IMG/VR virus record: IMGVR_UViG_3300037244_000046
Location: 1-22,466 of that record
From: a virus
Direction: 5' to 3' (one strand)
DNA length: 22,466 nucleotides
In this document: piece by piece, positions 4,592 through 22,466 of the stretch
Position numbering within the stretch: the first letter of the stretch is position 1
How the letters are laid out: each line of letters begins with the position of its first letter
Notes under the pieces: generated by a model
Database searches by the model: none
The model's input: only the letters and a program-made list of their open reading frames with translations
What the model was told of the DNA's origin: nothing
Translations under genes and position numbers: made by a program

Positions 4592-5071
4592 ATGCTGGAT
4601 TTCCAAGTGGAACAGTTGACGCTCTCCCTGATCGTGGAGACGGAAGCTGTGCAGCAGGCGTATTGGGAGGAAGTGGCTGGGCCATTCCACGCATTTCCTC
4701 CCGATGTGGACTGGAAAACGTACATGCTCGCCCAGCAAACCGGGCGCCTGGTAGTGATATGCGCACGCGTCGGTGGAGCGTTGAAGGCGGGATGTTTTGT
4801 TGTCACCACGCCACACCCGCACTACGCCTGCATCGCCTCGGGGTTGCCGTTGCTGTTCGTCCATCCCGACTACCGCAAAGGGCGAGAAGGATTGCGGCTA
4901 GTGAAAATGGCCGAGGAAGAGGCCGCTAAAGTTCAAGGGCAACTCATGATGACCCATGGCGGGATGCACAACGGCGTGTATAAGTTATTTGAATTCATGG
5001 GCTACCAAGACTTTGGACGCTACTTTGTCAAGATCATTGGAGATACGACGCCGGTTTTCAAGGTGAAATGA
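4592..5071 (+). CDS. GNAT-family acyltransferase-like protein (159 aa)
   Basis: The sequence follows the acetyl-CoA-dependent N-acetyltransferase fold. There is an N-terminal helix region, a strand pair (L-V-V-I-C-A-R then K-A-G-C-F-V-V), and motif A with strand L-L-F-V, H91-P-D-Y-R and the pyrophosphate loop R95-K-G-R-E-G100. A long helix (L-R-L-V-K-M-A-E-E-E-A) follows, and the C-terminal part has Y130-K-L-F-E-F-M-G-Y typical of motif B. The ending F-G-R-Y-F-V-K also matches small phage-borne members. It starts directly after the previous stop, with no strong ribosome site, so coupling is likely. Substrate is unknown; candidates are a virion protein, a host defence target, or a small molecule. 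Family assignment is firm, target is not. Confidence 0.75.
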   Translation: MLDFQVEQLTLSLIVETEAVQQAYWEEVAGPFHAFPPDVDWKTYMLAQQTGRLVVICARVGGALKAGCFVVTTPHPHYACIASGLPLLFVHPDYRKGREGLRLVKMAEEEAAKVQGQLMMTHGGMHNGVYKLFEFMGYQDFGRYFVKIIGDTTPVFKVK

Positions 5072-15116: not shown

Positions 15117-16852
15117 TGGCTCAAATTCCTACCGTCGTCGCGCCTAGTCTAACTCCGCCGCCGGAGATGAACCCGAACATCGCCGGAAAGCCGGGGCAGG
15201 CTCTTGCGGGCGTGGGAGAGCAACTGGCGAGCACAGCCGACATTGGCATTCAGGTTGCCGACCGCATCAAGAAGGCCCAAGACGAGGGGATTTTACTCGA
15301 CGCGGAGAACAAGATTGCCGGCGACATTGAGCAGGCGCACTCAGGACTCGCCAACTGGACCGACTACACTCACGCCGACCAATTGAAGCAGGACACCGCA
15401 ACCGCGCTTCAGGAAAAGTACGAAGAGAAGTATGGGAACCGGCCGGATCTCTGGCGCCACATTCAACCGTATCTTGGGAGGGAACTTAATTCCTACAACG
15501 GCGTGGTCGATCAGAAGGCTGCGCAACTCACGGCGCACTTCAATCAAGCCGCCCTGTTCGATTCTCAACTACATGCAGAGAACGAGGCGGCCACCGAACC
15601 CTCACTTGATGGCAAGGAGCGCATTTGGGCCATTCAGGATGCGAAGACGGATTTGATGGTCAAGAACGGGACGATGTGGGCGGACCAGGGCGAGCAGGCC
15701 AAGAAACTGCTCCGCTCGCGCACCATATCCGCCGAGGTTGAACGGGCCGCCAATCCATTGAACGCGCCTGAAATCATGGAATCTGAAATGGCGCGGCTGA
15801 AGGAGTACGAGGGGAAGGGCTATGTAGAGCCCGAAGAGCTTGAGCGGATGACCGACCATCTTTCAGTCGCATACGAACGAGCGCTTAACCGCTCAGATCG
15901 TGTTGATGTGTCGAAGCAGGGTGATGCGGTTCTGTCTAGCCTCAAGAACGATCCCACGCTCAAAGATCCCGAGACACGCGAATTCGACCATCTGGAGGCG
16001 GCGAAGCGGGTGGACGAAAACCCGGACATTCCTACGAAGGTAAAGAAGTACGTCCGCTCAGAACTTGAAGAGGAAGCCGGCGCGACTCAGAAATTGCAGA
16101 ATGATAAAGATCAGAAGATGCTGGACGATCTTGACCCGCATGTTGAAAGCGGCGCATTGACGTTCGCGGAACTGACGCGCCGGGAGAATCTAGCGCCCGG
16201 AGAAAAGGACTGGATACCGCGGCGGGTTGCGGATCATCTGCTCACCAAGTCTGCTCAGATTCAGCGCGAAAACCGAGTGGAAAACACTCAAGAAAGAATG
16301 CAACTTCGGCAGGAGGCGGATTACAACAGCGCACAGCTATTCAGAGAGGCGTCCTCAACCCCTGGCTACCTGACCAGCGAATCGGAGCTGTACCAAGGCG
16401 AGTACGCTAATCTGACCAAGGCCGACAGAGCGCAACTGTGGGCGGAGAAGAACATCGGAGGAGTGAAGGAATACCAGGACGCCGTGAAGATGATGAACTC
16501 TTCCTCTGCCTACCCGCAAACCGATGAAGGAAACCGCGCTCTTGCCGACGCCAAATCGCAACTTCGCGCAAGGGTGGAAGCTGGAAAACTTACTGGCCCG
16601 CAGATCACCGAAGAGGCGGCAAAGATTGTTGCGCCGAAGGTGGAAGCACAGACACACCAGACCATCAAGGGTTGGCTTGATGGAGTCTTCCACATTCAGA
16701 GGAACGCTCAAGGCGTGGCGGTTCCATCTCGCGGGACAACACCGCAAACGCCAACCTCGCGCAAAGAATACTTCGACGGGATGAAGAAGGCCAACCCCTC
16801 AGCCTCCGATGCAGACATTAACTCTTATCTCGACGGCAAGGGGATCAAGTAA
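15116..16852 (+). CDS. Internal virion protein-like (T7 gp15 position, 578 aa)
   Basis: The ATG overlaps the previous stop as TAATG. After a Pro-rich start (residues 1-25) the protein is almost wholly helical and charged. Many Glu/Lys/Gln runs suggest coiled coils, for example A-D-R-I-K-K-A-Q-D-E-G and V-E-P-E-E-L-E-R-M-T. There is no signal peptide, no membrane helix and no cysteine seen. T7 gp15 (747 residues) is a helical core and ejection protein that forms the periplasmic tube. The present protein is shorter but has the matching place and character. The C-terminus has a Pro/Thr-rich linker (R-G-T-T-P-Q-T-P-T-S-R-K) and a short acidic helix. No enzymatic motif was found. Confidence 0.6.
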   Translation: MAQIPTVVAPSLTPPPEMNPNIAGKPGQALAGVGEQLASTADIGIQVADRIKKAQDEGILLDAENKIAGDIEQAHSGLANWTDYTHADQLKQDTATALQEKYEEKYGNRPDLWRHIQPYLGRELNSYNGVVDQKAAQLTAHFNQAALFDSQLHAENEAATEPSLDGKERIWAIQDAKTDLMVKNGTMWADQGEQAKKLLRSRTISAEVERAANPLNAPEIMESEMARLKEYEGKGYVEPEELERMTDHLSVAYERALNRSDRVDVSKQGDAVLSSLKNDPTLKDPETREFDHLEAAKRVDENPDIPTKVKKYVRSELEEEAGATQKLQNDKDQKMLDDLDPHVESGALTFAELTRRENLAPGEKDWIPRRVADHLLTKSAQIQRENRVENTQERMQLRQEADYNSAQLFREASSTPGYLTSESELYQGEYANLTKADRAQLWAEKNIGGVKEYQDAVKMMNSSSAYPQTDEGNRALADAKSQLRARVEAGKLTGPQITEEAAKIVAPKVEAQTHQTIKGWLDGVFHIQRNAQGVAVPSRGTTPQTPTSRKEYFDGMKKANPSASDADINSYLDGKGIK

Positions 16853-19800
16853 TGGCCACGCAGCCACAACTCGTTGATCCCTTTGCGCAGAAGTCGCAAC
16901 CGCCTCCGCCTAAGCCTGCTCTGGTCGATCCATATACGCAGACTGCCCCGGCCCCATCGCTCGACCAGGACCAGGCGAAACGGGCTACAGACGCCCTCGT
17001 GTACTCACACCTGACCGGAGCGCCGCCGAGCTACACCTATGAGAACCGGGATGCCATTCACAAGGATTTCACGGAGCGCCTTCAGGGATACGCTGAGTCC
17101 GGATGGAAGGGTCTGACAAAAGACTCCATCATCGGCGAGTACCTGAGAGGGCAGACATCCAGCCCATTTGAAGGCGAGGGTGAGGTAGACAAGTTCATCG
17201 AGGGATTCGGGCAGATGATTGGAGACCTCCCCGCTTATCTTGTAGGCGGTGGATTGGGAGCTCTGGCTGGCGCCGCGGCCGGTTCGGTTGAGTTGCCGGT
17301 CATAGGAACCATCTCGGGCGGCGTGGTAGGGGCTGGCGCGGGCAGTTTCGGTCTGACCGCTGGGCTGCGTCAATGGCTTGTGGACAAGTACGCCGGTCGG
17401 CAAATATCGGCGTTTTCTGAAGTGATGGACGTTATCAAGGCGACGGGCAAGGGAGCGTTGACGGGGGCGGCTTTCGGTGTAGCTGGAGAAACGGCTCCGC
17501 TGGCTGGTGGAACGGTAGGCAGGTTCCTCGGACCTCGGGCGTACAAGACGGCTGCGGAGCTTGCGGCCATGACAACGGTTGGTAGTTTGGTTGAGGGGCA
17601 GGTTCCATCGGCGCGAGACTTCGCCCAGAACGCGGCTCTGCTCGCCCTGATGCACGTCACGGTGGGCAACCTGCCATTCGGCAAGAAGGCCGCCCCTGAA
17701 CTCCAGACGAAGACGATGGACCTTTACGCCAGAGAGGGCGTGCATCCTGCAGACATTGCCTCGGAAGCTGCCCGGCGCACTGTGGATGAGCCTCCTACCG
17801 AAAACCCGATGGAGATTCTGAACAAGATCGACAACGAACTCGCCGGGATTCCAGGGAAGACGCCAGAACATGCAGCGGAGGCCACAACAGAAGAGTCTCC
17901 CACGCCAGCGGGCGGTCCCGATACCGGCATCAAGAACGAGACCACCACGGCCGAGCGGGAAGCGCGGGGACTGCCGGAGGTTGAAGTTGAGGCCCGCCAG
18001 GTACCGGCTTTTGAAGCAGGCAAAAAGGCTGTAGACGAAGGCAGGATCGATCCCAGGGCCTTGGCGAAGGAACTTGCCGACAATCCACGCCCGCACACCG
18101 ATGAGGAAGCGGCAGCCCTTCTCTACGATCGCATGAAACTCCAGAACGAGCACGCAACGGCGATGAACACCATCGAGCAGGCGCGCGCTACCGGCGACGA
18201 AGACGCTATGGAGCGCGGCAAGGATCACTTGAAGCGGGTAGAAGACGCCATGAACGCGAACGATGAGGCCGCGCGGAAGTCGGGCACAGAGACCGGCAGG
18301 GCTCTCAATGCCAGGCGCATGATGATCAAGCAGGATTACTCGCTCGCCAACGTGCTCCAGAGAGCGCGCGCCGCCAGCGCCAACGGTGAGGTATCGCCGG
18401 AGGTCAGGCAGAACCTAGAAACCCTCACCCGGCAATTGGACGAGGCCAACAAGCGGCTCGACGATTATGAGGAGACAAAGAAGCAGCAGGCGGCGGAGCA
18501 AACGGTTGAGAAAGTAAGAAAAGGACTGCAAGAGCGCACCGGGCAGCGCGCGTCTACCAAAGAGGCTCGCAAGGCCGACCGGGATGTAATCTACAAGCAA
18601 CTGAACGCGGAATTGCAGCAGTTGAGCGCGAATCCCATGCTCAACCCTAAACTATATGAACTCTTCGGCAAGTTGGCAATCAGTCACATCGAAGACGGAT
18701 TGACGACAATCGAGCAGATCGTCGATGAAATTCACTCGAACCTTCAAGAGCGGGGCATCAGTAAGCGGGAGATTCGCGACTATATTTCGCAGTACGGCAA
18801 GAAGATCGAACTGAGCCAGGAAGAGATCAATGTGCAACTCCGCGAGGCGCGGCGGCAGGGGCGCTTGCTGTCTCAGTTGGAAGATGCTCAGGCGAAAGAG
18901 CAGCCTCTTCGGAGTGGGTTGCAGCGAGACAAGCAAACCGAGCGCGTCAAGGAACTTACGCAGCAGGTCAAAGAGGCAATGAGGGACGCTGGACTCACTC
19001 TTGACAAAAGAGAGACTTCCAACGATCAGAGACTAGCCACTTATAAGAAGGCGCTCGAAACCAAAATTAGGACGCTTCAGAAGCAACTCGATACCGGCGA
19101 CTTCACCAAGCCAACTCGCAGGCAAACGATTCTCGACCATCAGGCGGAGGATTTGAAAGCGCGGGCGGAGAAGATTAAGAGCCAGGTGGACGACGCGATA
19201 CACAAGCAAAAGTTGGCCGCGAGAACTCCGCTTGAAAAGGGTGCGGCTGTGTTCCAGAAGTGGCGCCGGGCGGTACTCCTGTCAAGCGTGAACACGCTGG
19301 GCAAACTGACAACCGCGGCGATGGCGCGATTCGGCACAACACCTATCGAAGAGTTGATCGGCGGTGTTCTGTCCAAGATGCCCGGCCTGTCCGATATTGC
19401 CGCGAAAGCACCGCGAGAGGGCGGCGGATTGAACCTTTCGGCGGAGGCGAAGGCGTTCGGTCAGTTCTTCGAGAAGGCGACCGCCAGCGACATCAAAGAG
19501 GCCGTCAAGACTGGCAAAACTTCGCTCGACTATCTGTACGGTAAGAAGAGCACACTTCCACCGGAGGCCCTCGATTTCTTTGGCCATTTGCACGGCGCTC
19601 TCAAGGTGCTTCCGAAGCGGGCGGAGTTCTTCCGCTCCCTAGAGAAGCGCGCGCAGTGGGCGCTCGACAATCACCTGGACATTCAAGACCCCAAGGTGCA
19701 GGTGACGATGGCGGCGGATGCGTATATCGACGCGAACCGCGCAATCTTCATGCAAGAGAACTTCATCAACACCGGATTCAGGATGCTAATGGGATACTTC

Positions 19801-20565
19801 CACTCACAGGGATTGAGCGGAAAATCGACCGAGTTCATGATTCAGACCGTTCTGCCTATCGTCAAAGTGCCAACCAACATCATCGCGGAGACAGGGACGG
19901 TTGCGTTCGGATCGTTGACTGGTAGCATCGACGCGATGCGCGTTTTGGTCACAAAAGACGGGCTCAAGAACCTGACCGGCCACGAAGCCGACAACATCAT
20001 GCGCTCGCTGAAGAAAGGGAGCATGGGACTGGCCGTGCTCGCAATGGGATATTACGCAGGCCAGTCTTCCGGGTTCATCACAGCAAGCGGCTTCTACAAG
20101 CCGGGCGATGAGAAAAAGAAGGAGAAGCCTGAATCGCTGACCATCGGAGGCGTGGAACTTCCACCGTGGGTTCAGCACACTCCCGTGGGGATAGTTTTCG
20201 AGATGGGCGCGACGATGCGGCGGGTAAACGATGCCTACACCGTAAAGGGCAAGAGCGGCGGGTTTGTTGCGGGGGCATCTACGGCGGGCCTGGGCGCGGC
20301 CAAGAAGGTGCCGTTTCTCGAAGAGGCAACGCGGTTAGGAGAGGCAACCCGCACCGCGGACTCCGCAGGACTGTTCATCGATGACCTGATCCAAAGTCTT
20401 CTCATACCTCCGGACGTGCGCAAGGTAGCTCAGATGGGCGATCCCACCAAGCGCAAGCCTACTGATCTGAAGGAGACGCTGGAGAACGCCATTCCGGGTA
20501 TGAGGGAGAACGTGCCGGCATCTAAAAAGAAGAAGAAATTCTCGATTCGCGGAGCGTACCGATGA
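16852..20565 (+). CDS. Giant internal virion/ejection protein (T7 gp16 position, 1237 aa)
   Basis: The largest gene of the window, overlapping the previous one by TAATG with AGGGG eight bases upstream. Visible order: Pro-rich head with a repeated L-V-D-P motif (residues 7-10 and 24-27); a helical domain to about 120; a Gly/Ala-rich hydrophobic region (126-172 and 196-275) that could enter a membrane; a Pro/Thr/Glu-rich linker (310-380); a long coiled-coil region (about 390-790); and a C-terminal globular region from about 790 (F-Q-K-W-R-R-A-V-L-L-S-S, then G-H-L-H-G-A-L-K) with a further hydrophobic stretch near 1060. The end is strongly basic. T7 gp16 (1318 residues) crosses the inner membrane, but no N-terminal transglycosylase motif was seen here. 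Parts resemble giant polyvalent phage proteins. Confidence 0.65.
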   Translation: MATQPQLVDPFAQKSQPPPPKPALVDPYTQTAPAPSLDQDQAKRATDALVYSHLTGAPPSYTYENRDAIHKDFTERLQGYAESGWKGLTKDSIIGEYLRGQTSSPFEGEGEVDKFIEGFGQMIGDLPAYLVGGGLGALAGAAAGSVELPVIGTISGGVVGAGAGSFGLTAGLRQWLVDKYAGRQISAFSEVMDVIKATGKGALTGAAFGVAGETAPLAGGTVGRFLGPRAYKTAAELAAMTTVGSLVEGQVPSARDFAQNAALLALMHVTVGNLPFGKKAAPELQTKTMDLYAREGVHPADIASEAARRTVDEPPTENPMEILNKIDNELAGIPGKTPEHAAEATTEESPTPAGGPDTGIKNETTTAEREARGLPEVEVEARQVPAFEAGKKAVDEGRIDPRALAKELADNPRPHTDEEAAALLYDRMKLQNEHATAMNTIEQARATGDEDAMERGKDHLKRVEDAMNANDEAARKSGTETGRALNARRMMIKQDYSLANVLQRARAASANGEVSPEVRQNLETLTRQLDEANKRLDDYEETKKQQAAEQTVEKVRKGLQERTGQRASTKEARKADRDVIYKQLNAELQQLSANPMLNPKLYELFGKLAISHIEDGLTTIEQIVDEIHSNLQERGISKREIRDYISQYGKKIELSQEEINVQLREARRQGRLLSQLEDAQAKEQPLRSGLQRDKQTERVKELTQQVKEAMRDAGLTLDKRETSNDQRLATYKKALETKIRTLQKQLDTGDFTKPTRRQTILDHQAEDLKARAEKIKSQVDDAIHKQKLAARTPLEKGAAVFQKWRRAVLLSSVNTLGKLTTAAMARFGTTPIEELIGGVLSKMPGLSDIAAKAPREGGGLNLSAEAKAFGQFFEKATASDIKEAVKTGKTSLDYLYGKKSTLPPEALDFFGHLHGALKVLPKRAEFFRSLEKRAQWALDNHLDIQDPKVQVTMAADAYIDANRAIFMQENFINTGFRMLMGYFHSQGLSGKSTEFMIQTVLPIVKVPTNIIAETGTVAFGSLTGSIDAMRVLVTKDGLKNLTGHEADNIMRSLKKGSMGLAVLAMGYYAGQSSGFITASGFYKPGDEKKKEKPESLTIGGVELPPWVQHTPVGIVFEMGATMRRVNDAYTVKGKSGGFVAGASTAGLGAAKKVPFLEEATRLGEATRTADSAGLFIDDLIQSLLIPPDVRKVAQMGDPTKRKPTDLKETLENAIPGMRENVPASKKKKKFSIRGAYR

Positions 20566-21821
20566 GTGAAACCTCCACCAAATCGGTCTGCGTCTGCGAC
20601 AATGGCCTATTCTCGGAACTGGCGCGCACGCTGTCTGATTCATTCGGAAAAGTCTATTACACGTCTCCGTGGGTATCTGGGTTCCCATTCAGCGCCCACC
20701 TGGAGGTTGGCGAAAGCGATCAGAGCCTCAATATCGAGCGCATCGATGACTTGCACGAAGTCATCGATGACTGCGACCTGTTCGTTTTCCCTGACATCTA
20801 CCAGGGGCCAGCGCAGGAATACCTTGAATCCATCGGCAAGCGCGTTTGGGGATCGCGCGATGGAGACGATCTTGAAATCTACCGCAAGGACGCGAAAGAA
20901 CACTTTGCTGAGCTTGGCATTCAGCAGGGCGAATACGAAGCGATTAAGGGCATGACTGGCGTGCGGAAATACATCAAAGAGCACGACGGATGCAAGTTGT
21001 GGATCAAAGGTAATAAGGCGCGCGGCGATTTCGAGAGTTTCGCGGTCGAGGGCTACGATCTTGGTAAGAGCAAGCTAGATGACATCGAAGCCCGTCTCGG
21101 TCCGGTTGCCGAAAGTATGACCTACATTGTTGAGCCAAACCTGAAGGACACGCTTGACCTAGCTATCGACACTCACTGCATCGACGGGCAGTACCCTGCG
21201 ACGGCCGTTCTCGGAACCGAAGAGAAAGGCGAGTGCTACGTCGGTGCGGTTCGTCCATGGGCGAAGATGCCTGCCAAACTGCGGGCCATCTACGACAAAC
21301 TGGCGCCAACATTCAAGAGGTACGGCTACCGCAACTTCCTATCCCTGGAGTCGCGGGTTGACCAGAAGCACGTCTACCTGCAAGATCCATGCTGCCGGGC
21401 CGGTTCCCCGCCGATGGAGTTGCAACTCAATTGGATCAAGAACCTTGCGAATATTATGTGGATTGGATCAACCGGGAAGATGGTCGAGCCGGAGTATGCA
21501 GGCAAGTACGGAGCGCAACTGAACATCCATTCCGACTGGGCCGACCAACACCCCCTCATGGTAGACTTCCCACAGGAGCATCGCTCTGCGATTAAGTTCC
21601 GCTATAACAGCGAGTTCGATGCGAAAACGTGGATTCTACCGCAGGGCGCCGGGCCGAGAATTGCAGCCGTGGTTGCGTGCGGAGACTCGCTTGAAGCCTG
21701 CATGGAGCGGTGCAAGGAGATCAGCGGCTCGCTCAAGGGAATACAGGTCGAGGCGTTCACGCGCTCGTTCCCGATTATCGAGGAGAAGATCAAGCAGTTG
21801 AGGGGGTTTGGCTTATGGTGA
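20562..21821 (+). CDS. ATP-grasp (PurD-like) ligase-fold protein in the tail operon
   Basis: The 419-residue protein follows the PurD/GARS plan. An N-terminal Rossmann-like part is followed by D72-L-F-V-F-P-D and G-K-R-V-W-G-S (92-98). Next comes the helix Y-R-K-D-A-K-E-H-F-A-E-L-G-I leading into E-Y-E-A-I-K. The ATP-grasp strand L-W-I-K-G-N (K149) and hinge Y-I-V-E-P-N (E191) follow, then Y-R-N-F-L-S-L-E263, and the final motif L-Q-D275-P-C-C-R279-A-G-S-P. Typical members have E-x-N-x-R there; here it is D-x-C-C-R, so metal binding may be altered. The family joins a carboxylate to an amine using ATP. It overlaps the neighbouring genes on both sides (ATGA; 7 bases), so it belongs to the tail operon. 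True purine synthesis is unlikely. Confidence 0.72.
   Translation: MSETSTKSVCVCDNGLFSELARTLSDSFGKVYYTSPWVSGFPFSAHLEVGESDQSLNIERIDDLHEVIDDCDLFVFPDIYQGPAQEYLESIGKRVWGSRDGDDLEIYRKDAKEHFAELGIQQGEYEAIKGMTGVRKYIKEHDGCKLWIKGNKARGDFESFAVEGYDLGKSKLDDIEARLGPVAESMTYIVEPNLKDTLDLAIDTHCIDGQYPATAVLGTEEKGECYVGAVRPWAKMPAKLRAIYDKLAPTFKRYGYRNFLSLESRVDQKHVYLQDPCCRAGSPPMELQLNWIKNLANIMWIGSTGKMVEPEYAGKYGAQLNIHSDWADQHPLMVDFPQEHRSAIKFRYNSEFDAKTWILPQGAGPRIAAVVACGDSLEACMERCKEISGSLKGIQVEAFTRSFPIIEEKIKQLRGFGLW
21801..21817 (+). promoter_or_regulatory. Shine-Dalgarno that sets the tailspike start and its signal peptide
   Basis: AGGGGG (21801-21806) is eight bases before ATG 21815. This supports translation from the ATG that includes the signal-peptide-like N-terminus. 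The next in-frame ATG (21848) lies inside the hydrophobic core and has no purine-rich site before it. Confidence 0.65.
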
Positions 21822-22466
21822 GACGCGCATTGTTGCTTTTGGCTTTCATGCTTCTCCCGGCACTCGCCCGCGCGACCGTGACCGGCACGGCCAGCACTGC
21901 GCCATTCCTCTGCACCGGCGCGACCGGCCCATTCCCCTTTACTTTCCCGGTGGACGATGCCGCCGGTCTGCTGGTGATCGATACTCCGGCCGGATCGCTT
22001 CCTGGCGTGATGACAATACTCGCATCAAGCGCGTGGACGAGCACGCCGGTTAATAATTCCTACGCGAACGGCGGCAGCATCACGCTGGTAACTTTATGCA
22101 CGGCCGGAGACACGCTGACCATTGCGCGAGCTACAGAGCCTACTCAGTTGACAGCATTCACCCCGTACATGCCTGCCCTCTATGCGAACTTCGAGAACGC
22201 GCTCGACAAATTGACGACCGGGAGGCAGGATGCCTTTCGCGCTCTCCAGCTTCAACCAGGAACTATGAGCACGATTCCGTTCGGTTCCAGTGGAAGCGCG
22301 TCTATTACATACACTCCACTAGGTCAATTTCTCAATCTGGTGTTCCCAGGGGCCGCGTCATCTACGTCCTATCCAGGTTGCGCCACTGCTACTGGAGGCA
22401 TGGCCTGCAAGACCACCGGCATCCCGCGCCCAGTAGATGATGTAACGCAGTTCGGTTGTGTCGGCG
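21815..22466 (+). CDS. Tail fibre/tailspike with N-terminal Sec signal peptide (partial, runs off right edge)
   Basis: 217 codons are visible without a stop. Residues 1-20 look like a signal peptide: basic M-V-R-R, hydrophobic A-L-L-L-L-A-F-M-L-L-P, and a cleavage site A-L-A-R-A before T21. Residues 22-135 follow the T7-fibre-type adaptor pattern: F-P-F-T-F-P-V-D near 40-47, a strand L-L-V-I-D, G-G-S-I-T-L, then A-G-D-T-L-T-I-A-R, T-Q-L-T-A-F-T-P and the helix F-E-N-A-L-D-K-L-T-T. At 208-217 D-D-V-T-Q-F-G-C-V-G matches the start of pectate-lyase-like beta-helices in tailspikes (D/F-G-A-V-G-D-G). Five cysteines (33, 95, 189, 198, 215) are many for a spike. The adaptor would attach to the tail; the missing part likely binds or cuts glycan. 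Confidence 0.72.
   Translation, partial: MVRRALLLLAFMLLPALARATVTGTASTAPFLCTGATGPFPFTFPVDDAAGLLVIDTPAGSLPGVMTILASSAWTSTPVNNSYANGGSITLVTLCTAGDTLTIARATEPTQLTAFTPYMPALYANFENALDKLTTGRQDAFRALQLQPGTMSTIPFGSSGSASITYTPLGQFLNLVFPGAASSTSYPGCATATGGMACKTTGIPRPVDDVTQFGCVG

Follow-up and report, generated by a model that had tools for sequence, protein, structure and literature searches.

A PurD-like ATP-grasp gene in a phage tail operon belongs to a family of putative phage ligases with a recurrent partner gene

Results

The ATP-grasp gene overlaps both of its neighbours

The window, as the whole stretch of DNA analysed is called here, is a 22.5-kb virus record in which PHROG searches identified genes for terminase, portal (phrog_332), major capsid (phrog_212), tail tubular (phrog_394 and phrog_376) and internal virion (phrog_418) proteins, and from this set of genes a podovirus-like structural module can be recognized. 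Pfam and PHROG searches with the larger window proteins led to structural and packaging families and to one acetyltransferase, and no other purine gene was found among them. The acetyltransferase gene (4592-5071) is GNAT-like (phrog_1249, E=2e-8) and has the terminase gene on one side and the portal gene on the other.

The ATP-grasp ORF (20562-21821) starts with ATG, contains no internal stop and shares 4 nt with the upstream gene (ATGA; stop of that gene at 20563-20565) and 7 nt with the downstream gene (own stop at 21819-21821; next ATG at 21815), in agreement with a sequence-only reading of this DNA that had described a complete ATP-grasp ORF overlapping its neighbours at both ends. The positions of the genes and of conserved motifs are given in Table 1. 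For the large upstream ejection-like protein no Pfam or PHROG family was matched. The fibre/spike-like genes that follow the ligase gene encode signal-peptide-like hydrophobic N-termini (MVRRALLLLAFMLLPALARA, for example), both in the window (21815-22466) and in the related locus L004 (11264, 11829, 15710 and 17600), which is unusual for virion proteins built in the cytoplasm.

Values of dN/dS for the ATP-grasp ORF were 0.05-0.06 against two 84%-identical relatives, approximate figures as dS is near saturation, and 0.05-0.09 among close relatives, which shows that the ORF is under strong purifying selection. Because of these low values and because its reading frame is common to dozens of relatives, the ORF is not a chance one. 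A frameshifted ligase copy was encountered in L007 (10001-11264), where assembly errors are likely since the neighbouring ejection gene on the same contig is split as well.

Table 1. Positions of the ATP-grasp gene, its conserved motifs and selected neighbours (in the window unless another contig is named)
Feature	Position	Strand	Remarks
Large ejection/internal-virion-like protein gene	16852..20565	+	1237 aa; function inferred from position
PurD-like ATP-grasp gene, whole ORF	20562..21821	+	419 aa; profile, TIGR00877 and fold matches
E105-x-x-R108, linker segment	20874..20885	+	E 112/112, R 109/112; aligned with PurD L-E-G-S-K
K149-x4-R154, strand lysine and loop arginine of the ATP-binding subdomain	21006..21023	+	both 112/112
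G218-x-E220-x-K222, family-specific, region of PurD D-H-K	21213..21227	+	E220 and K222 112/112
E263-x-R265, first metal-carboxylate position	21348..21356	+	E 112/112, R 109/112; aligned with PurT E267
D275-P-C-C-R279, second metal-carboxylate motif	21384..21398	+	D and R 112/112
Fibre/spike-like protein, gene start only	21815..22466	+	function inferred from position and longer homologues
Replacing PurD-like gene in L118	6605-7951		c1 directly after
Replacing PurD-like gene in L113	6662-8008		c1 directly after

The predicted fold is that of PurD

Compared on its own, the window protein reached 12 bits (E=0.066) against the purD model TIGR00877, below the curated cut-off of 288 bits, and it matched no Pfam family and no PHROG significantly (best 0.17). 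A single-sequence PDB match to the metallo-beta-lactamase PNGM-1 (E about 0.01) was judged to be due to chance, as it was gone with a deep profile. Iterated searches of viral contigs raised the number of relatives from 6 to 63 and then to 88, and a 42-row family alignment was used for profile searching and structure modelling. The profile matched PurD in the PDB (2yw2, E=1.2e-7) in two colinear stretches, and 19 of the 42 aligned members matched TIGR00877, the best with 3.4e-9. The model obtained from this alignment had a pLDDT of 94 and a pTM of 0.91, whereas a model from only 5 close sequences had a pLDDT of 42. When the model from the 42-row alignment was compared with structures in the PDB, the top 14 matches were all PurD, with 2yw2 aligning over the whole chain (E=6e-19, TM 0.73), and these were followed by biotin carboxylases and PurT; the best match in a viral structure library had a TM of 0.48-0.55. 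The PurD-like ATP-grasp fold that the sequence-only reading had proposed, naming structure prediction and structural search as its check, was therefore recovered over the full length of the protein, and the window protein is predicted to possess the fold of the ATP-grasp superfamily, in which two alpha/beta subdomains hold ATP.

Catalytic positions are conserved and the final motif lacks the asparagine

Residue conservation was counted over 112 distinct proteins of the window's branch of the family (branch A), with identities down to about 27-30%. Ten residues, E105, K149, R154, D203, E220, K222, E263, D275, R279 and N294, were invariant (112/112), and residue 108 was Arg in 109 proteins, the remaining 3 having Lys. 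K149, E263, D275 and R279 represent a trait of the superfamily, in which an ATP-binding lysine and acidic ligands of the metal precede a final Arg. Such invariance indicates constraint, without telling which reaction is catalyzed.

The final motif had been read as D-P-C-C-R instead of E-x-N-x-R, which proved correct; its third position is T in 59, C in 49 and A in 4 of the 112 proteins, and never the Asn of ExNxR. The PurT and PurK proteins from E. coli are working ATP-grasp enzymes whose corresponding carboxylates serve as metal ligands. PurT has E267...E279-V-S-P-R and PurK has E226...E238-L-A-P-R, with Ser or Ala at the Asn position, and the 12 residues from E263 to D275 equal the spacing between the two carboxylates in both enzymes. 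As Asn is also missing from active PurT and PurK and the remaining catalytic positions do not vary, D-P-C-C-R gives no sign of a dead enzyme, and the earlier proposal that it marks a dead copy or necessarily a new chemistry is not supported. Judging from these residues, the phage ligase is most likely active.

The family resembles PurD and is distinct from it

The window protein shares with PurD (TIGR00877; PDB 2yw2, 2qk4 and 1gso) the full-length domain order and fold, a colinear profile match, the L-E-x-x-K/R segment and the final R-x-x-x-P. However, R[LF]GDPEx[EQ], the GARS signature seen in E. coli PurD, occurs in none of 139 branch-A and none of 22 branch-B proteins; in addition, branch A lacks the TGPNTGGMG-type loop, has T, C or A instead of the Asn of ExN and Asp instead of its Glu, and possesses an extra carboxylate, E263, which has no counterpart in PurD. 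Since the signature and the loop are gone and the score lies far below the cut-off, the family is regarded as built on a PurD chassis and should not be named PurD, and the earlier view that purine synthesis is unlikely is borne out by the missing signature.

With PurT and PurK the window protein has in common two carboxylates 12 residues apart, a residue other than Asn and then an Arg, and the alignment with the PurT profile spans 292 columns with a low probability score, but the loop motifs differ and PurT and PurK rank below PurD in the fold search. The R2K clade of ATP-grasp proteins, which comprises CDC123 and phage and bacterial relatives, is characterized by a strand lysine, a close basic loop residue and an E-x-R motif (PMC4431377). 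K149 followed by R154 (both 112/112) and E263-x-R265 are reminiscent of this arrangement. A further mark of the clade is that the linker lysine is absent; at this position (108) the window family keeps a basic residue, Arg in most members and Lys in a few. The overall architecture is PurD-like, and among the listed families none of the R2K Pfam models came up at E<=10.

Relatives occur on unrelated phage backbones

The family is widespread among contigs of uncultured phages, and branch-A relatives are all on viral contigs. No tblastn match to branch-A proteins was obtained in GenBank-phage and plasmid collections, and two scans of genome contigs with patterns from close relatives only detected no cellular relatives. 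The family is spread across unrelated phage backbones: the large neighbours of the ligase gene fall into 24 clusters upstream and 32 clusters downstream, and the gene is mostly found among packaging and structural genes, its neighbours in some relatives being terminase, portal or DnaB-like helicase genes (in L068 a replicative helicase). It is evident from these neighbourhoods that the tail-operon site is a trait of the window's lineage and not of the family, so that the earlier suggestion of a tail-operon linkage holds within that lineage and does not extend to the family as a whole.

Nine loci were compared at the site of the window's ligase gene and all nine are occupied. The ejection protein of L113, L118 and L119 shares 81% identity with that of the window, and in these three loci the site contains a 23%-identical PurD-like gene followed by c1, a small gene described below; at the remaining six loci the gene is of branch A. 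The ligase sequence is identical in L118 and L119. The profile of branch B (L118, L175 and MW202796.1) matched E. coli PurD with E=5e-30. Branch B resembles the window ligase in having the Asn replaced (E-x-T-x-R) and in its use of the same site in sister phages, and the wider window family in its c1 partner (L118, L113); it differs from the window protein, to which it is about 23% identical, in being nearer to PurD and in keeping R-F-G in most members. In the circular 43.8-kb phage record MW202796.1 (L125), the PurD-like gene (42140-43468) is unannotated and lies downstream of genes for a tail stabilization protein and a GNAT.

A small gene, c1, recurs beside the ligase gene

The c1 protein has about 125 aa and invariant residues H48, E52, D70, H97 and E104, mostly with an HExxE motif, and searches of Pfam, PHROGs and the PDB brought no substantial match for it. 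c1 is present at 64 of 103 ligase loci, and in 52 cases it adjoins or overlaps the ligase gene on the same strand. The link between the two genes is recurrent, as well-supported branches require c1 to have changed state 8 times or more. In a scan seeded with c1, a PurD-like gene was present in 63 of 80 loci (39 from branch A and 24 from branches nearer to PurD), some contigs being common to the c1-seeded and the ligase-seeded samples. Seventeen c1 loci (L129, L168, L181 and L194, for example) have no recognisable PurD-like gene nearby. An antisense ORF cluster (cluster 14) that seemed to be conserved was rejected as a mere shadow of c1.

c1 is absent from the window's own branch, even across contigs of 44-50 kb, and for the window's copy the evidence from c1 is therefore indirect. 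A search for c1 elsewhere in phages without it at the ligase locus found it absent from 17 of 19 contigs, the two matches being loci that have c1 locally.

Two further kinds of genes accompany the ligase gene in a few cases. A gene resembling AdoMet decarboxylase (PF02675, E=6.6e-5, slightly short of the cut-off) is situated between c1 and the ligase gene in L019, L020, L021, L023 and L062, and GNAT acetyltransferase genes lie beside the ligase gene in three loci. Rare as they are, these neighbours may point to an amine or a peptide as the product.

Discussion

The explanation that best accounts for these results, with a probability of roughly 0.6, is that the product of the gene is a carboxylate-amine ligase of the ATP-grasp type, competent in catalysis, derived from a PurD-like (GAR synthetase-like) ancestor and acting on a phage-specific substrate. 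MgATP would be held by K149, R154, E263 and D275, and the chemistry would follow that of other ATP-grasp ligases, with a carboxylate converted to an acyl phosphate on which an amine then acts as the nucleophile. The enzyme would be made late, together with the virion genes, and would act on a small molecule, a peptide or a protein inside the infected cell. Modification of a virion protein, a surface molecule or a host factor, all of which the sequence-only reading had considered, is possible, and the likeliest single class, with about one chance in three, is the addition of an amino acid or an amine to a component of the virion or the envelope.

Among the alternatives, a copy of the ATP-grasp fold that has lost catalysis and serves a structural or regulatory role, for example as a virion component, fares best and is nevertheless improbable. 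The gene does lie within a structural operon in the window and the Asn of ExNxR is never present, but active PurT and PurK do without this Asn, non-structural neighbours such as the DnaB-like helicase occur, and ten invariant candidate catalytic or binding positions would be needless in a scaffold.

PurD acts on a ribosyl amine, and purine enzymes have been recruited by phage DNA modification pathways. A nucleotide- or DNA-modifying ligase that helps to build a hypermodified base would fit this background and the relatives located beside a replicative helicase, but it appears unlikely, as the gene is found mostly amid packaging and structural genes and a gene of the thymidylate synthase family was present in none of 36 related contigs. 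Hypermodification through thymidylate synthase was rejected on the latter count.

Slightly less credible still is the conjugation of a decarboxylated, polyamine-like amine to an acid in the manner of glutathionylspermidine-type ATP-grasp enzymes. The decarboxylase-like gene between c1 and the ATP-grasp gene points in this direction, bacterial operons link AdoMetDC and ATP-grasp genes (PMC11237479) and, according to PMC10407285, phage homologues of AdoMetDC can be ornithine or arginine decarboxylases. However, the gene occurs at only 5 of 103 loci, was not found in the other contigs searched and is not present in the window's lineage.

That the gene is a genuine PurD (GAR synthetase), an auxiliary metabolic gene boosting purine supply, is the least probable reading, for although virome studies have reported purD among phage auxiliary genes (PMC11097641; PMC11360552), the PurD fold extends over the full length and profiles are similar, the GARS signature is absent from both branches, the loop is lost in branch A, the score is a small fraction of the curated cut-off and the larger window proteins include no second purine gene.

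The gene represents a large phage enzyme family that had gone unrecognized in Pfam, in PHROGs and in the searched GenBank phage records, and its recurrent partner c1 makes the function of the family approachable. A wider proposal, which we consider rather doubtful at present, is that many uncultured phages carry a dedicated cassette for modification, consisting of a PurD-derived ligase and an HExxE partner, to which a gene resembling a decarboxylase or an acetyltransferase is sometimes added. The cassette would couple an amine or an amino acid to some molecule of the virion, the envelope or the host; if true, it would constitute a phage modification pathway that has not been described before. 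Among the auxiliary genes that virome studies such as PMC11097641 and PMC11360552 have listed as 'purD', some may also be such ligases and not genes of purine synthesis.
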